This document shows positions 32,736 to 38,640 of a stretch of 64,000 nt of DNA, piece by piece. The stretch is taken from NCBI RefSeq assembly GCF_000190595.1, contig NC_015167.1:2345501-2409500 (forward strand), written 5' to 3'. The notes below the pieces were generated by a model, which did not search any database, was not told the DNA's origin, and saw only the letters and a list, made by a program, of their open reading frames with translations. Position numbers and translations under genes: made by a program. Position 1 is the first letter of the stretch. Each line of letters starts with the position of its first letter. This DNA comes from Cellulophaga lytica DSM 7489. Lineage in GTDB: Bacteria; Bacteroidota; Bacteroidia; Flavobacteriales; Flavobacteriaceae.

Positions 32736-33737
32736 ATGACCGAGGGTAATTTTGTAGACTATGTAAAGATGACGGTTTCTTCTGGTAACGGAGGTAAAGG
32801 CTCTGTGCACTTGCATAGAGAAAAGTATATTACCAAGGGTGGTCCAGATGGTGGTGATGGTGGCCGTGGTGGTCATATTATTTTACGTGGTAATAAAAAC
32901 TTATGGACTTTATTAAATTATAAAGTACAAAGGCATTTTAAAGCCGGACACGGAGAACACGGTAGTAAAGGCCGTAGTACAGGAGCAGATGGCGAAGACG
33001 TTTTTATGGATGTACCATTAGGTACCGTAGTTAGAAATACAGAAACTAACGAAATTGTTTTAGAAGTTACTGAACACGGAGAAGAAGTTATACTACTTAA
33101 AGGTGGTTTAGGTGGCCGTGGTAACTGGCACTTTAAAAGTAGTACCAACCAAACACCAAGGTATGCACAACCTGGTTTACCTGGAGAAGAAATGCAAATT
33201 ACCTTAGAGCTAAAAGTATTAGCAGATGTTGGTTTAGTTGGTTTTCCTAATGCAGGTAAATCTACGTTGCTATCTGTATTAACTTCTGCAAAACCTAAAA
33301 TTGCAGATTATGAGTTTACTACATTAAAACCAAACTTAGGAATTGTAAAGTACAGAGACTTTCAGAGTTTTGTAATGGCAGATATTCCTGGTATTATAGA
33401 GGGTGCTGCAGAAGGTAAAGGCCTAGGTCATTACTTTTTAAGACATATAGAGCGTAATGCTACATTATTATTTTTAATACCTGCAGATAGTAAAGATATT
33501 GGTAAGGAGTACAGAATACTTTTAAATGAACTTAAAAGGTATAATCCAGAACTTATAGATAAAGAACGTTTTGTAGTAATTTCTAAAAGTGATATGCTAG
33601 ATGATGAACTTATTGCAGAAATGAGTGCAGAGTTAGATAAAGATTTAGACGGTGCTACTTATATGTTTATTTCTTCTGTTGCACAACAAGGATTACAAGA
33701 GTTAAAAGATAAATTGTGGCAACAGCTAAACAATTAA
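32736..33737 (+). CDS. obg: GTPase Obg (CgtA)
   Basis: A 333-residue ribosome-associated GTPase. The N-terminal Obg fold is glycine-rich ([28 protein letters not shown]). The G domain has G1 [10 protein letters not shown]2 TTLKPNLG, G3 DIPGIIEGA, and G4 SKSD, with the switch sequences typical of Obg. It lacks a C-terminal extension, which is common in Bacteroidota. Obg acts in 50S subunit maturation and growth control. It follows the hpt-adk gene by 38 nt and is probably in one operon with it. Confidence 0.97.
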
Positions 33738-33776: not shown

Positions 33777-33839
33777 CTTTAAAAGACCATACCTCTTATT
33801 TATACCGTATAATAAGTAAGATTAATTAAATACATACTA

Positions 33840-34364
33840 ATGAAAAACTACATATCTCTACTATTTATTATACTGTTGGTTTCATGCAATACTGTACGTG
33901 TAAATTATGATTATGATAAAGATTTAGACTTTACAGCGTATACTACTTATGGTTTTTATAGAGATATGAATACTGGTTTAAATGATTTAGATACCAAGCG
34001 CCTATTAAATGCTATAGAAGATGTTATGCGCACCAAAGGTTTTAAATTGGCAGAAGAACCAGAACTTTATATTAACATTACTGCACAAGTATATAAAGGA
34101 GCACCAAGCAACTCTGTTGGTGTTGGCTTAGGTGGTGGCGGTAACAATATTGGTGGCGGCCTATCTGTAGGAGTTCCAATTGGTGGTGCCCAGTTGCAAC
34201 GCGAAATTACCTTTGACTTTATAGACGTACAACGAGATGCTTTGGTTTGGCAAGCTGTAAGTGTTAGTGGTTATAAAGAAAACCAAACCCCAGAAGCCAA
34301 AGAACTTAAACTACTGCAAATAGTAGAAAAAGCACTAAGTAAATACCCGCCTAAGGTAAAATAG
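33840..34364 (+). CDS. DUF4136 family lipoprotein
   Basis: A 174-residue lipoprotein with a lipobox (LLVSC, Cys16). The domain resembles DUF4136: YDYDKDLDFTAYTTYGFY at the N-terminus, GFKLAEEPELYINITAQVYKG in the middle, then a glycine-rich loop (GVGLGGGGNNIGGG) and ITFDFIDVQRDALVWQAV. The function of the family is unknown; members are envelope proteins. It lies 103 nt after obg, probably as its own transcription unit. Confidence 0.85.
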   Translation: MKNYISLLFIILLVSCNTVRVNYDYDKDLDFTAYTTYGFYRDMNTGLNDLDTKRLLNAIEDVMRTKGFKLAEEPELYINITAQVYKGAPSNSVGVGLGGGGNNIGGGLSVGVPIGGAQLQREITFDFIDVQRDALVWQAVSVSGYKENQTPEAKELKLLQIVEKALSKYPPKVK

Positions 34365-34438
34365 TTGTTAGTTTGTTTGCTGCAAACTAAGTAGTTATGT
34401 ACTGCAAATACAGCAATTTCAATTCAATTCTTCAAAAT

Positions 34439-34466
34439 TACCGTTCGCAATTCTTAAATTACCGTT
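34439..34466 (+). promoter_or_regulatory. tandem LytTR operator, copy 1
   Basis: TACCGTT occurs at 34439-34445 and again at 34460-34466, exactly 21 bp apart in the same orientation, the two-helical-turn spacing of known LytTR binding sites. The second half-site is followed by nnTCATAAA, as in copy 2. It lies 36 nt upstream of the -7-like TACCTTTA. Confidence 0.65.
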
Positions 34467-34502
34467 TGTCATAAAACGGATTTTTTTAGGGATAAGTTGC
34501 TA

Positions 34503-34510
34503 TACCTTTA
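34503..34510 (+). promoter_or_regulatory. -7 promoter element for the first small membrane protein
   Basis: TACCTTTA differs from TAnnTTTG at the last base only. It starts exactly 36 nt after the second half-site of LytTR operator copy 1, the same distance as in copy 2. Confidence 0.45.
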
Positions 34511-34553
34511 CATCATAATTAAACAACTAATAATAACCTTAAATTTTAGTATT

Positions 34554-34688
34554 ATGAAAAATAGAATAGCAATCATCAAAAAAGCAGAACAAATTAAAGC
34601 CTTATTAATATGTAGCATTATAGCAATAGTGCCAGTATACCACGTAGGCTACAAATTAGGCGGTGCTATTGTACAGTTATTTGTGTAA
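34554..34688 (+). CDS. 44-residue single-pass membrane protein, LytTR locus copy 1
   Basis: From ATG 34554 a 44-residue product has a basic N-terminus (MKNRIAIIKKAEQIKA), one membrane helix, and a C-terminus with HVGYKLGGAIVQLF. This ending matches the LGYNFGKLLYYLGF end of the second small protein. An upstream in-frame ATG at 34497 would lie upstream of the -7 element and is rejected. No family is known to me. Expression is probably controlled by the LytTR regulator encoded 1.7 kb downstream, through operator copy 1. It might be a signal, an inhibitor or an envelope-stress effector. Confidence 0.6.
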   Translation: MKNRIAIIKKAEQIKALLICSIIAIVPVYHVGYKLGGAIVQLFV

Positions 34689-34711
34689 TAAACCAAGGTG
34701 TTAACGTGTAT

Positions 34712-34739
34712 TACCGTTTAGGTTTTAAATACTACCGTT
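34712..34739 (+). promoter_or_regulatory. tandem LytTR operator, copy 2
   Basis: TACCGTT at 34712-34718 and 34733-34739, again exactly 21 bp apart and followed by nnTCATAAA. It lies 36 nt upstream of the -7 element TATTTTTG, the same spacing as copy 1. Confidence 0.65.
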
Positions 34740-34775
34740 CATCATAAATTACCTAAAAAGACATTTAAACTATTT

Positions 34776-34783
34776 TATTTTTG
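34776..34783 (+). promoter_or_regulatory. -7 promoter element for the second small membrane protein
   Basis: TATTTTTG matches TAnnTTTG exactly. The predicted transcript would carry a leader of about 90 nt that contains the TCATCAATCAA repeats. Confidence 0.5.
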
Positions 34784-34785
34784 AA

Positions 34786-34852
34786 TCATCAATCAAAAAA
34801 CAAATCATCAATCAATCAACAACAGTTCATTAATAAATAGTTCATCAATCAA
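34786..34852 (+). repeat. three direct repeats of TCATCAATCAA in the mRNA leader
   Basis: The 11-mer TCATCAATCAA occurs exactly at 34786-34796, 34805-34815 and 34842-34852, all within the predicted leader of the second small membrane protein gene. The leader has almost no G and is probably unstructured. It could help translation start or bind a protein; the function is unknown. Confidence 0.6.
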
Positions 34853-34879
34853 AATCATCATTTTTAAAAACTAACAGTT

Positions 34880-35014
34880 ATGCAGAAACCAACAACCCAA
34901 ACCCAAAAAGTAAATACAATTGCTTATGGTATTTTAATTAGCACTTTTGCACTTGCACTACTTTTTGGTTTAGGTTACAACTTTGGTAAACTTTTGTACT
35001 ACTTAGGATTTTAA
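34880..35014 (+). CDS. 44-residue single-pass membrane protein, LytTR locus copy 2
   Basis: ATG 34880 opens a 44-residue product with a polar N-terminus (MQKPTTQTQKVNT), one membrane helix (YGILISTFALALLFGLGY) and the end LGYNFGKLLYYLGF. Length, topology and the GYxxG C-terminus match the protein at 34554-34688, suggesting distant paralogues. Its promoter carries LytTR operator copy 2. It is too short for standard gene calling and is easily missed. No family is known to me. Confidence 0.6.
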   Translation: MQKPTTQTQKVNTIAYGILISTFALALLFGLGYNFGKLLYYLGF

Positions 35015-35057
35015 AAACAACTAATCAACTATTAACCATCAATCTAAAAAAAACATT

Positions 35058-35111
35058 ATGATACTACTAGCAGAATTATTGATTGTCGTAATTTTAAACA
35101 TTATCGCTTAA
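35058..35111 (+). CDS. 17-residue hydrophobic peptide, doubtful
   Basis: ATG 35058 opens a frame for MILLAELLIVVILNIIA, a single hydrophobic helix, 50 nt upstream of the kinase gene. Its codons give a plausible membrane peptide, and its start context (CATTATG) resembles that of the first small protein. At this length chance is likely, so it is listed only because of its place in the locus. Confidence 0.25.
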   Translation: MILLAELLIVVILNIIA

Positions 35112-35161
35112 ACAAAAATATATAGCCTTTACAGCGTATTAATGTATTAGAATAAAATTTA

Positions 35162-36250
35162 ATGAAACTTATAAATAACTGGAAATACTGGGTTTTTGCC
35201 TTAATAGGGTGGTTGGTTTTAATACTATCTACACTAACTTTTGACAAAGTCTCATACGGATTAGAATATGCAAACCAAAATGAATATTACGGTTATATAG
35301 GTTACTTAATAGGAGAAGGTATTGCATGTGGCTTACTAGCATATGCAATGTCTTTTATATTGTTATATTATATAGAAAAGCACATTACATTTGGGAACCT
35401 TAAAAAACGAAATGTAGTTAGTTTGGTATTGCTTTTTATTGGAGTTCAAATAATATACTCTTTAATTTTATGGCCAATGTTAGATGTGGTTCAGAGTATT
35501 TCTAGTTTTGAATCAGAGAAAAGCTTAACAGACTCTATAAATTGGTTTATGCGTTTAACAAATATACCATTCTTTTCTGCAATGTTTGTGATATGGATTT
35601 TTATAGTATTAGTAATAAAAGCTTATGACTACAACAAAAATATTACGTTAAAACAGTTTAAACTAGAGGGGAGTTTAAAAGAATCGCAATTAAACTCTTT
35701 AAAAGGACAAATTAATCCTCATTTTATGTTTAATAGCTTAAATAATATTAGAGGATTAATGTTAGAAGATGTTGGTAAGTCTAGAGAAATGCTTACAAAA
35801 CTGTCTGAAATGCTTAGATATTCATTAATTAAGAACGATGTAAATTCTATTGCTTTAGAAGAAGAGTTAGATATGGTAGAAAACTATATTGCTTTGTCTA
35901 AAATTCAGTTTGAAGATAGATTAGAATTTGTAAAAGAAGTAGATCCTAATTCGCTTTCTGTGTCCATACCTCCAATGATTATACAGTTATTGGTAGAAAA
36001 TGCGGCAAAGCACGGTATCGCTAATTTAATTAAAGGAGGCACAATAACGTTAATAACTAACAGAACCCATGATTATTTACATATAATAGTACGTAATACG
36101 GGTAAATTAAAAATAGCAAAAGGTTCTACGCAATTAGGGCTTAAAAATATAAAACAACGACTACGGTTGTTATACGGAAACTTAGCAGAGTTTTCTATAG
36201 GTGAAGTAAATGAAGAGGTAGTAGCAAATATTAAAATACCAATGGTATGA
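35162..36250 (+). CDS. LytS-type sensor histidine kinase
   Basis: A 362-residue membrane kinase. Four membrane helices (about residues 10-24, 45-70, 85-104, 137-154) precede a short linker and a His_kinase domain of the LytS family: phospho-acceptor His187 in KGQINPHFMFNSLNN, then VENAAKHG as the N-box and QLGLKNIKQRL as the G-box. It has no separate sensor domain, so the signal is probably sensed in the membrane. Its stop overlaps the start of the regulator gene by 4 nt. The kinase likely phosphorylates that regulator, and the small membrane proteins upstream are candidate inputs or outputs. Confidence 0.93.
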   Translation: MKLINNWKYWVFALIGWLVLILSTLTFDKVSYGLEYANQNEYYGYIGYLIGEGIACGLLAYAMSFILLYYIEKHITFGNLKKRNVVSLVLLFIGVQIIYSLILWPMLDVVQSISSFESEKSLTDSINWFMRLTNIPFFSAMFVIWIFIVLVIKAYDYNKNITLKQFKLEGSLKESQLNSLKGQINPHFMFNSLNNIRGLMLEDVGKSREMLTKLSEMLRYSLIKNDVNSIALEEELDMVENYIALSKIQFEDRLEFVKEVDPNSLSVSIPPMIIQLLVENAAKHGIANLIKGGTITLITNRTHDYLHIIVRNTGKLKIAKGSTQLGLKNIKQRLRLLYGNLAEFSIGEVNEEVVANIKIPMV

Positions 36251-36996
36251 GTATGATTAAAGCAGTTATAGTTGAAGATTCTAGATTGGCTAGAAACGAG
36301 TTAAAAGAATTGATTAAAAACCACGGCGATATAGAAATTGTTGGGGAGGCAGAGAATGTAGATGAAGGTTATAAATTAATTAATGAAACCCAACCAGACT
36401 TATTGTTTTTGGATATTAATATGCCAGAAAAAGATGGATTTGAGCTCTTAGAAATGTTAGATAAGGTGCCAATTACAGTGTTTACTACAGCTTTTGATGA
36501 ATATGCCATTAAATCTTTTGAGTATAATGCCTTAGATTACATTTTAAAACCTATAAACGCTAAGCGTTTTGCAAAAGCTATAGAAAAAGTTAAGGCACAA
36601 CTAGAGGGGGCTACAACAGAAAATGGCCAAGAGAATGCAACCAATGAAGCTAAAGAAAAACTAACAGAAAGTAGTCAGATTTTTATAAAAGATGGAGACA
36701 AATGTTGGTTGGTTAAAATAGGAGATATCTCTTTGTTTGAAATAGTGGGTAATTATACACGTGTTTATTTTAAAGGAGAAAAACCAATGTTGTATAAGTC
36801 TTTAAACCAAGTTGAAGAAAAATTACCAGAGCATAACTTTTTTAGGGTTAACAGGCAACAGATTATAAATGTAAATTACATTGCTAATGTTGTACCGTGG
36901 TTTAATGGTAAACTTAAATTAACAATGAACTCTGGTGAAGAAGTAGAGGTGTCTAGAAGACAGTCTTATATTTTTAAAGATAAAATGAGTATTTAA
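36247..36996 (+). CDS. LytTR family response regulator
   Basis: A 249-residue regulator. The receiver domain (1-~120) has Asp10/11-type acidic residues (VEDSRLAR), phospho-acceptor Asp56 (LLFLDINMP), and the switch segment YILKPINAKRF. A charged linker follows and the C-terminal LytTR DNA-binding domain (about 150-249) contains FEIVGNYTRVYF, FFRVNRQQIINVNYI and VEVSRRQSYIFKDK. LytTR domains bind tandem TACCGTT-like sites about 21 bp apart; two such sites occur 1.5-1.8 kb upstream. ATG 36247 overlaps the kinase stop; ATG 36253 is an alternative. Confidence 0.95.
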   Translation: MSMIKAVIVEDSRLARNELKELIKNHGDIEIVGEAENVDEGYKLINETQPDLLFLDINMPEKDGFELLEMLDKVPITVFTTAFDEYAIKSFEYNALDYILKPINAKRFAKAIEKVKAQLEGATTENGQENATNEAKEKLTESSQIFIKDGDKCWLVKIGDISLFEIVGNYTRVYFKGEKPMLYKSLNQVEEKLPEHNFFRVNRQQIINVNYIANVVPWFNGKLKLTMNSGEEVEVSRRQSYIFKDKMSI

Positions 36997-37006
36997 AAAA
37001 GATGCT

Positions 37007-37048
37007 AAAAAGTAATGACTAAATTGTGGGGAAAAACCACTACTTTTT
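37007..37048 (+). terminator. probable terminator of the LytTR operon
   Basis: AAAAAGTA and TACTTTTT enclose an inner GTGG-loop-CCAC hairpin, 11 nt after the regulator stop. The stem is interrupted by an unpaired stretch on the left side, so the fold is less certain than the others. Confidence 0.45.
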
Positions 37049-37182
37049 ATACATCTCTTCAGGAAATTAGCCATTAAGTAGGCTTGTATATTTTTACTAT
37101 CTAATAGTGTATAATTGTATACCTACTTTAAAGTTAATTAAAAATATTTACTTTTTAGTATAAAGTATTGTAAAACAATAAA

Positions 37183-38640
37183 TTATAACATTGGTGATAA
37201 CAGTTTTGCTATTTTATCTCCTAATCTAATATACCAAGGTCTATTAATCCATTTTTCTTTGTCTATTTGTTCTGCATCTAATAGATCGTTGTAAAAAGTT
37301 TTGGTTAATTCAGTAGCAATTTCTTCATCATACACAATAGCGTTAACCTCAAAATTAAGTTCAAAGCTTCTGTTGTCCATATTAGCCGTACCAACAATAG
37401 CTATTTTTTTATCTGTAACTATAGTTTTTGCATGTACAAACCCTTTTTTATAGCGGTAAACTTCTACGCCTGCATTTAATATTTCTCTGTAATATGCTCT
37501 AGAAGCAGCGTTTACTAAAAGGGTGTCTGACTCATAAGGTACAAGTAGTTTAACTTTTAACCCGCTCATTGCAGCAATGTTTAAAGCATCTAATAAACTT
37601 TCTCCAGGTATAAAATAAGGTGTGGTAATTAGTATTTCTTCCTCAGCTAAATAAATGGCTTGTAAAATAGAATATAAAATTGTTGGTGAGTTAGAGTCTG
37701 GTCCGCTAGCAGCAATTTGTACCAGTTTTGTATCTGTGTATGCAAATGAATTAAAAGGTACATACATCTCTTTCTCTAAAATTAAATTTTGGTTAGAGCA
37801 AGAGTTCCAGTCCGATAAAAATATATACTGTAAATAAGTTACCGCCGGACCTTCTAATTTTAAGTGCGTATCTCTCCAAAAAACGGCATCTGTGGTTTGG
37901 GTAGAGTTTACATAATTATCACTTACATTTATACCTCCAACAAAACCAATTTTACCATCTATAACAATAATTTTTCTGTGGTTGCGGTAATTAAGACTAT
38001 TAGCAAAAGCTATTAACTTTATTTTGTAAAAAGGTACAGCTTCAATACCAGCATCTCTTAATCTTTTACTAAGCGTTTTTCTTATTTCAGAACTACCATA
38101 ATCATCATAAATAAACCTAATTTTAACACCTTCTTTTGCTTTTTTTAGAAGGAGTTTTTCTATGGTATTACCAATTTTATCGTCTCTAAAAATATAATAT
38201 TCTATGTGTATATGATGCTGGGCTTTTTCAATAGCTTTTAAAACTTCCGGAAATTTATTTTCACCATTGAGTAAAAGTTTTACAGTATTGTTATTTGTAA
38301 GCGGACTAGCAGTATCTTTCAATAATAAGTTAACCAATTCTGATCTGCTTTTTGCAGGCTCATTACCATTTTCTAAAACTTCTTTAGAGTGTGCTATTAT
38401 TTCTTTTTCTAAAACTTTTCTTTGTTTAGAGTCTAACAAAAATTTGTTAGCATACATTTTATGTTTTCTGTAATTTATACCAAATGAGAAATAAATAATA
38501 ATACCTAAAAAAGGCAAAAACACTGCGCCTAATAAATAAGCAAGTGTTTTTGTAGTGCCTCTAGTATCATAAATTATACGCAAACATGTAAATAATAATA
38601 AAAGTGCGTATAGTATTTCTAACAACAATATCCAGTTCAT
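37183..38640 (-). CDS. cls: cardiolipin synthase
   Basis: A 485-residue membrane enzyme that joins two phosphatidylglycerols to make cardiolipin. Two N-terminal membrane helices (about residues 3-25 and 33-55) are followed by two phospholipase D domains. The HKD motifs are in HRKIIVIDGKIGFVGG and HAKTIVTDKKIAIVGTANMD. All expected residues are present and the length fits the family. The gene starts 10 nt downstream of an inverted repeat that recurs before the alpha-2-macroglobulin gene, its upstream neighbour on the same strand. Confidence 0.95.
   Translation of the reverse strand: MNWILLLEILYALLLLFTCLRIIYDTRGTTKTLAYLLGAVFLPFLGIIIYFSFGINYRKHKMYANKFLLDSKQRKVLEKEIIAHSKEVLENGNEPAKSRSELVNLLLKDTASPLTNNNTVKLLLNGENKFPEVLKAIEKAQHHIHIEYYIFRDDKIGNTIEKLLLKKAKEGVKIRFIYDDYGSSEIRKTLSKRLRDAGIEAVPFYKIKLIAFANSLNYRNHRKIIVIDGKIGFVGGINVSDNYVNSTQTTDAVFWRDTHLKLEGPAVTYLQYIFLSDWNSCSNQNLILEKEMYVPFNSFAYTDTKLVQIAASGPDSNSPTILYSILQAIYLAEEEILITTPYFIPGESLLDALNIAAMSGLKVKLLVPYESDTLLVNAASRAYYREILNAGVEVYRYKKGFVHAKTIVTDKKIAIVGTANMDNRSFELNFEVNAIVYDEEIATELTKTFYNDLLDAEQIDKEKWINRPWYIRLGDKIAKLLSPML

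Follow-up and report, generated by a model that had tools for sequence, protein, structure and literature searches.

A LytTR two-component locus of Cellulophaga lytica that probably drives very small membrane proteins

We analyzed a window of 64,000 nucleotides from the genome of Cellulophaga lytica DSM 7489 (contig NC_015167.1, positions 2,345,501 to 2,409,500; a single contig of 3.77 Mb), in which a two-component locus occupies 34439 to 36996 of the window. The locus is, with a probability of about 0.7, an autoregulated LytTR system that drives very small membrane proteins. All its features are on the plus strand, in the order operator 1, a 44-residue protein (P0001, 34554..34688), operator 2, a second 44-residue protein (P0002, 34880..35014), a 17-residue hydrophobic peptide (MILLAELLIVVILNIIA, 35058..35111), a membrane histidine kinase (35162..36250), and a LytTR response regulator (36247..36996). 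Judged by its counterparts in 79 of 80 related loci (the best 80 of at least 561 from a kinase search), the 17-residue open reading frame (ORF) is the best conserved small product of the locus. It is the third small ORF of the locus, ends 50 nt before the kinase gene, and was missing from the small ORFs listed in a first-pass annotation of this DNA.

Operator 1 (TACCGTTCG-N12-TACCGTTTGTCATAA, 34439..34474) and operator 2 (TACCGTTTA-N12-TACCGTTCATCATAA, 34712..34747) were recognized by sequence. As the first-pass annotation had reported, TACCGTT pairs lie at 34439/34460 and 34712/34733 with a period of 21 in both, and each pair is followed by nnTCATAAA (TG-TCATAAA in operator 1 and CA-TCATAAA in operator 2). 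The end of the second repeat is exactly 36 nt from a candidate -7-type promoter element in both cases, namely, TACCTTTA (34503..34510) past operator 1 and TATTTTTG (34776..34783) past operator 2. The repeats read TACCGTTCR and TACCGTTNR, are 9 nt each with 12 nt between them, and have a period of 21, in agreement with the cited part of PMC4847170, which describes LytTR sites as two 9-11 nt repeats that are 11-13 nt apart. The genome scan for TACCGTT-N14-TACCGTT that had been proposed with the annotation returned two exact pairs, both at this locus. Six more bare pairs were found genome-wide at 1 mismatch. At up to 2 mismatches there were 76, compared to 80 in the backward control, and the loose bare pair alone therefore carries no meaning. 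A fuller site, the 36-mer TWCCRYTYR-N12-WACCRYTNRTCATAA, is a consensus drawn from relatives; operator 1 has 0 mismatches to it, and operator 2 was placed with the same consensus. At up to 1 mismatch this site occurs three times in the C. lytica genome, twice at this locus, compared to 0 in the control; at up to 3 mismatches the counts were 8 and 6.

The same arrangement recurs in the related loci. Within 1.5 kb upstream of the kinase, the TACCGTT pair (up to 2 mismatches in total) was present at spacing 21 in 45 of 80 loci, while every other spacing from 14 to 35 gave 0 to 8 of 80. A search over whole loci and on either strand, with up to 2 mismatches allowed, found the full site 83 times in the 80 loci, always on the sense strand, and a tiny hydrophobic ORF stood directly 3' of the site in 60 of the 83. 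The remaining 23 sites preceded 44- or 45-residue proteins (6 sites, L031-L033), a short remnant (1 site, L034), other small membrane proteins (6 sites), larger proteins (8 sites, 3 of them with a start like that of an S9-type hydrolase), and tiny ORFs with an earlier out-of-frame ATG (L062) or a GTG start (L081). Of 78 loci, 66 had a site with up to 3 mismatches ahead of the tiny ORF, at a distance of 94-126 nt in 65 of those 66, and controls in kinase-coding sequence and on the reverse strand always had at least 6 mismatches. Upstream of 5 of the 80 kinases no operator was found at up to 3 mismatches. The motif TAnnTTT stood exactly 36 nt past the site in 47 of the 66 peptide-linked sites (35 nt in 2), indicating that the 36-nt rule recurs across relatives; in sites of the genus Cellulophaga it was at 36 nt in 55 of 58. 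Both sites in the window thus look like LytTR operators of this two-component system, and that earlier proposal is supported through genome comparison alone.

We additionally searched 149 genomes of the family. Fourteen had the kinase at an E value of up to 1e-125; a tandem paralogue came next at 2e-95, and all other matches were at 7e-70 or weaker. With up to 1 mismatch allowed, the full site occurred in 11 of the 14 genomes with a kinase orthologue compared to 3 of the 135 without one, and two of the sites in the latter genomes had no tiny ORF close behind (L129 left out). Searching the 149 genomes for the operator independently of the kinase gave 17 sites, compared to 2 in the control. Of its 14 sites outside C. 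lytica, 9 preceded a tiny ORF, 2 an S9-type hydrolase, and 2 neither (L129 left out). A pattern of TCATA plus a tiny ORF, tried in 395 genomes of the order, was not informative (18 matches and 11 in the control); the one examined among those 18, L137, matches the upstream region of L108.

The tiny ORF was called by a fixed rule (16-26 residues, hydrophobic, beginning M-[IVF]-x-[ILVF], without proline). Under this rule 78 of 80 loci have it, and the locus with the GTG start (L081) brings the count to 79. It was not found in L043, which has kept its two operators. Within 1.5 kb upstream of the kinase the ORF was present in 77 of 80 loci; the reverse strand gave 4, and 20 mononucleotide shuffles averaged 1.15. 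Among 47 distinct 17-codon ORFs, 55 close pairs, which are not independent of each other, had 190, 36, and 352 substitutions at codon positions 1, 2, and 3, with a pN/pS of 0.24. On these substitution counts, the 17-residue ORF is under purifying selection. Across 58 distinct peptides, the fraction with a polar residue was 0.52, 0.97, 0.81, and 0.95 at positions 3, 6, 10, and 14 and did not exceed 0.12 at any other position. These four positions form a stripe on one face of a helix.

The tiny ORF is linked to this kinase subfamily, as far as comparison of genomes can tell. Under the fixed rule, and with 1.5 kb of upstream sequence (one locus reached only 775 nt), the tiny ORF was found beside 9 of 13 orthologues outside the C. 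lytica genome and a site at up to 3 mismatches beside 8 of 13. In contrast, neither was found beside any of 7 weaker kinases of the family (0/7 for both) or beside the 29 homologues that belong to other families in the class (0/29 for both). Of the four orthologues missed by the fixed rule, two have the ORF more than 2 kb upstream (L208 and L212) and two have ORFs that begin with ML or MM (L202 and L207). With longer stretches and looser rules, the tiny ORF was found beside all 13 orthologues and the operator beside 12. The looser rules also gave a 16-residue hydrophobic ORF beside 1 of the 7 weaker family kinases (L217) and a 21-residue ORF beside 1 of the 12 other kinases of the C. lytica genome (L157), where less than 500 nt upstream was covered for 7 of the 12; the fixed-rule run had taken in 9 of the 12.

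The kinase has a His_kinase domain (PF06580, 1.3e-25, 89.9 bits, cutoff 25.2) and belongs to that family. The 5TMR-LYT domain was not found in it by a Pfam search at E values of up to 1, and the cited part of PMC10653868 defines LytS-type kinases by this input domain. Of the first-pass designation as a LytS kinase, the histidine kinase at 35162-36250 therefore stands, and the LytS label holds loosely at most. In the structure model, the first half of the kinase consists of four long helices (7-33, 39-74, 82-113, and 134-181) joined by loops of about 5 to 20 residues. As the model contains no extra outside domain, the kinase input may well come through the membrane. The closest named relative among the matches listed was a kinase of Cellulophaga omnivescoria (95% identity). 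The regulator at 36247-36996 is the LytTR protein that the annotation had proposed: its response regulator domain (PF00072, 4e-21) and LytTR domain (PF04397, 1.8e-24) both score above the cutoff. By tblastn, all 80 loci have a relative of it, which follows the kinase immediately in 78 and lies 732 and 1005 nt further on in the other two. Its best NCBIfam match was the BtsR model, at 172.5 bits and thus below the equivalog cutoff of 246 (NF008677). The genome encodes 13 His_kinase proteins and 18 LytTR domains in total.

The two 44-residue ORFs that had been noted behind the operators are present, and both putative products are single-span membrane proteins with a GxxxG motif, a helix-packing motif, near the C terminus (GYKLG in P0001 and the tail GLGYNFGKLLY in P0002). 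Its two glycines were invariant in 12 proteins picked from different loci, including P0001 and P0002. Relative to Cellulophaga fucicola (L032), synonymous changes numbered 18 in P0001 and 14 in P0002, and nonsynonymous changes 11 and 13. With about 28-30 synonymous sites and 102-104 nonsynonymous ones available, these counts indicate purifying selection. The synteny check that had been proposed gave a divided result. Counterparts of the small ORFs exist in relatives, but the 44-residue pair is patchier than the tiny ORF: proteins with a P0002-like tail were found in 22 of 80 loci and the tiny ORF in 79. Another genus (G026, L205) encodes a P0001-like protein of 46 residues behind a separate operator, and one Cellulophaga locus (L034) keeps the operator and the tiny ORF with no intact 44-residue ORF. 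Separately, the small-protein region that precedes the kinase gene also encodes, in many of the loci L066-L110, proteins about 64-73 residues long that have two hydrophobic stretches; the two scanned had no Pfam match.

The circuit had been described as self-contained, and this did not hold. A third operator in the C. lytica genome (contig position 691,646; L258), 1.7 Mb away, precedes two tandem ankyrin-repeat proteins with secretion-like starts by eye. The gene next to this pair resembles what we take to be nqrF. Eighteen genomes of the genus contained 77 sites at up to 2 mismatches, compared to 5 in the control, with 1 to 10 sites per genome. In 18 regions, which were chosen around sites, 58 sites preceded ankyrin-repeat genes (35), tiny ORFs (8), genes for GxxxG proteins (6), S9-type hydrolase genes (3), and other genes (3), and for 3 no gene was found behind the site. 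In sister species (L249-L252), the kinase locus carries four to seven cassettes of an operator and an ankyrin-repeat gene, mostly 606 to 639 bp apart, and the encoded proteins have 127-130 residues and a secretion-like start; for this reading of the cassettes in sister species, L254-L257 were covered only in part. Behind the cassettes in L249, L250, and L252 come first an operator with the gene for a GxxxG protein of 45 or 46 residues, then another operator with a tiny ORF, and finally the kinase gene. In the clade of the window, the ankyrin part sits elsewhere but has an operator of its own, with one operator ahead of the ankyrin pair.

From the sites, the spacing, the coding selection, and the linkage to a kinase subfamily computed here, we infer a model that extends to binding, activation, operon structure, membrane location, and feedback. 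The membrane kinase would phosphorylate the LytTR regulator, and the regulator would bind the tandem sites, with their period of 21 bp, 36 nt upstream of the -7 element and activate. Its likely targets are the 17-residue single helix, kept with the kinase in many Flavobacteriaceae, and lineage-specific single-span GxxxG proteins of 37-46 residues, among them P0001 and P0002. The small proteins are probably membrane helices that remain in the cytoplasmic membrane. The regulator probably boosts its own operon too: with 50 nt between the end of the tiny ORF and the kinase gene, a self-feeding operon is probable. As to what the products do, the function that we rank first, at somewhat short of even odds, is that at least the 17-residue peptide packs against the four-helix domain of the kinase and tunes it. 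Because the kinase model has four helices, short loops, and no extra outside domain, a membrane-embedded partner would be a natural source of the signal. A more detailed version, in which the peptide, to our knowledge the smallest dedicated partner that a two-component kinase would have, docks as a single helix with its polar stripe into the four-helix kinase and reports the state of the membrane while the output of the regulator is the amplified, secreted ankyrin-repeat cassettes, is unlikely as a whole.

Several observations weigh against the proposed model. The regulon is wider than kinase feedback, as operators also precede ankyrin-repeat and S9 hydrolase genes. Two kinase types (L031-like and L066-like) with different membrane helices both occur with the peptide, which is hard to reconcile with a precise fit. 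At position 6 the Cellulophaga peptide has E, where K was found in 40 of 47, and inspection of the kinase revealed no clear charge that would compensate for the change from K6 to E6. The helical moment of 0.287 exceeded the 0.198 of shuffled peptides only weakly (18% of shuffles reach it). The kinase model is of moderate quality (pLDDT 77.9, pTM 0.50). In 12 of 78 loci, the sequence ahead of the tiny ORF taken as the counterpart contains no site even when 3 mismatches are allowed, and the tiny ORFs of L048, L049, L051, and L056 look different and may be chance.

Some of these points fit another function, ranked second and held with appreciable but lesser confidence, in which the 17-residue peptide acts on the membrane itself as an effector. 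An equally tentative rival extends this to all the small products: the tiny peptide and the GxxxG proteins would be outputs, either YohP-like stress effectors that are membrane-active and would alter an envelope complex or the potential or fluidity of the membrane, or hydrophobic-peptide toxins. The sites before ankyrin-repeat and S9-type hydrolase genes, which give no sign of a feedback role, and the retention of the peptide with two different kinase membrane domains are consistent with outputs, as is YohP itself, a 27-residue protein that alters membrane fluidity and potential according to the abstract of PMC12719787. However, the tiny ORF is linked to a single kinase subfamily, and the other kinases of the family or class do not share this link, which counts against the rival. 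For the toxin version, no antisense promoter-like site was found in 78 loci, in a scan of low power (it found such a site on the sense strand in 2 of 78), and Rfam gave no match.

It is improbable that the 17-residue ORF encodes a secreted signal of the kind used by Agr or Com systems, a pheromone that the kinase would sense. LytTR systems of these types with peptide pheromones are known, and a peptidase-like gene lies behind a like operator in several genera, but the peptide consists of a hydrophobic helix and nothing more, with neither a leader nor an obvious cleavage motif. A leader peptide whose translation controls the downstream genes in cis appears slightly less probable still. The tiny ORF is indeed the first after the operator in 60 of 83 cases. 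However, the distance from its start to the start of the kinase varies from 59 to 2324 nt across loci, it comes third in the window, selection acts on its amino acids, and an Rfam search of 33800-37200 found no match. Finally, repeats and ORFs that arose by chance in AT-rich DNA have a negligible probability. In its favor, loosening the genome search to 2 mismatches makes the bare pair no more frequent than its backward control, and loosening it to 3 leaves the full site barely above its own control, but the comparative results with their controls (spacing, strand, orthologue genomes, shuffles, genus sites, and other kinases) oppose this explanation.

Two-repeat LytTR operators, small proteins that tune kinases, and tiny membrane stress proteins are already known kinds. 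The staphylococcal LytSR-LrgAB system is a LytTR system adjoining genes for small membrane proteins that it activates; LrgA and LrgB are multi-span, unlike the predicted single-span proteins here. The operators may resemble the E. coli BtsR motif. BtsS/BtsR and YpdA/YpdB of E. coli share with this locus a membrane kinase, a LytTR regulator, and a direct-repeat operator. However, in the cited parts of PMC5552118 and PMC10653868 these systems respond to pyruvate and act on transporter genes, whereas the putative targets here are tiny membrane proteins; BtsS and YpdA are also LytS-type, while the kinase here shows no 5TMR-LYT domain and the regulator falls below the BtsR cutoff. MgrB (acting on PhoQ), SafA, and UgtS are small membrane proteins that act on a kinase (PMC10576120, cited part), and MgrB is in the regulon of its own kinase (PMC8404706, cited part). 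These proteins have 34-65 residues and act on a kinase with a periplasmic domain, whereas the peptide here has 17 residues and is tied by genomic linkage to a kinase with a four-helix model. YohP of E. coli is a tiny membrane protein too, but has 27 residues rather than 17, and the abstract of PMC12719787 names no LytTR regulator. In the open-license literature searched, we found no paper on this locus and no 17-residue kinase partner with its own operator.

ORFs this short are mostly dropped by genome annotation. Here, a 17-residue ORF under selection is kept with one kinase subfamily across many genera despite its annotation-evading length. A very small, unstudied protein family can now be assigned a probable promoter and a probable regulator, its possible functions can be tested, and a marine-bacterial system becomes available for a direct test of small-protein kinase control or of a minimal membrane effector. 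The 36-nt rule from operator to promoter and the ankyrin and hydrolase targets sketch the regulon of this LytTR regulator.

Other features were observed at these loci. A protein of 750-790 residues with an N-terminal GSWKGTL lies upstream of the small-protein genes in L206, L201, L202, L249, L251, L252, and L253, mostly behind its own operator; the copy scanned, that of L206, matches Peptidase_S9. Another protein of about 655 residues, with EISR-W-TS near its start, lies behind such an operator or in the same stretch in L208, L212, and L043, and its L208 copy had no Pfam match at E values of up to 0.1. Two related kinases stand in tandem in L250, L251, L253, and L265, and the window has one. 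Upstream of operator 1 in the window are a gene for a DUF4136 protein (33840-34364) and, before it, what we take to be the gene for an Obg-type GTPase (32736-33737).

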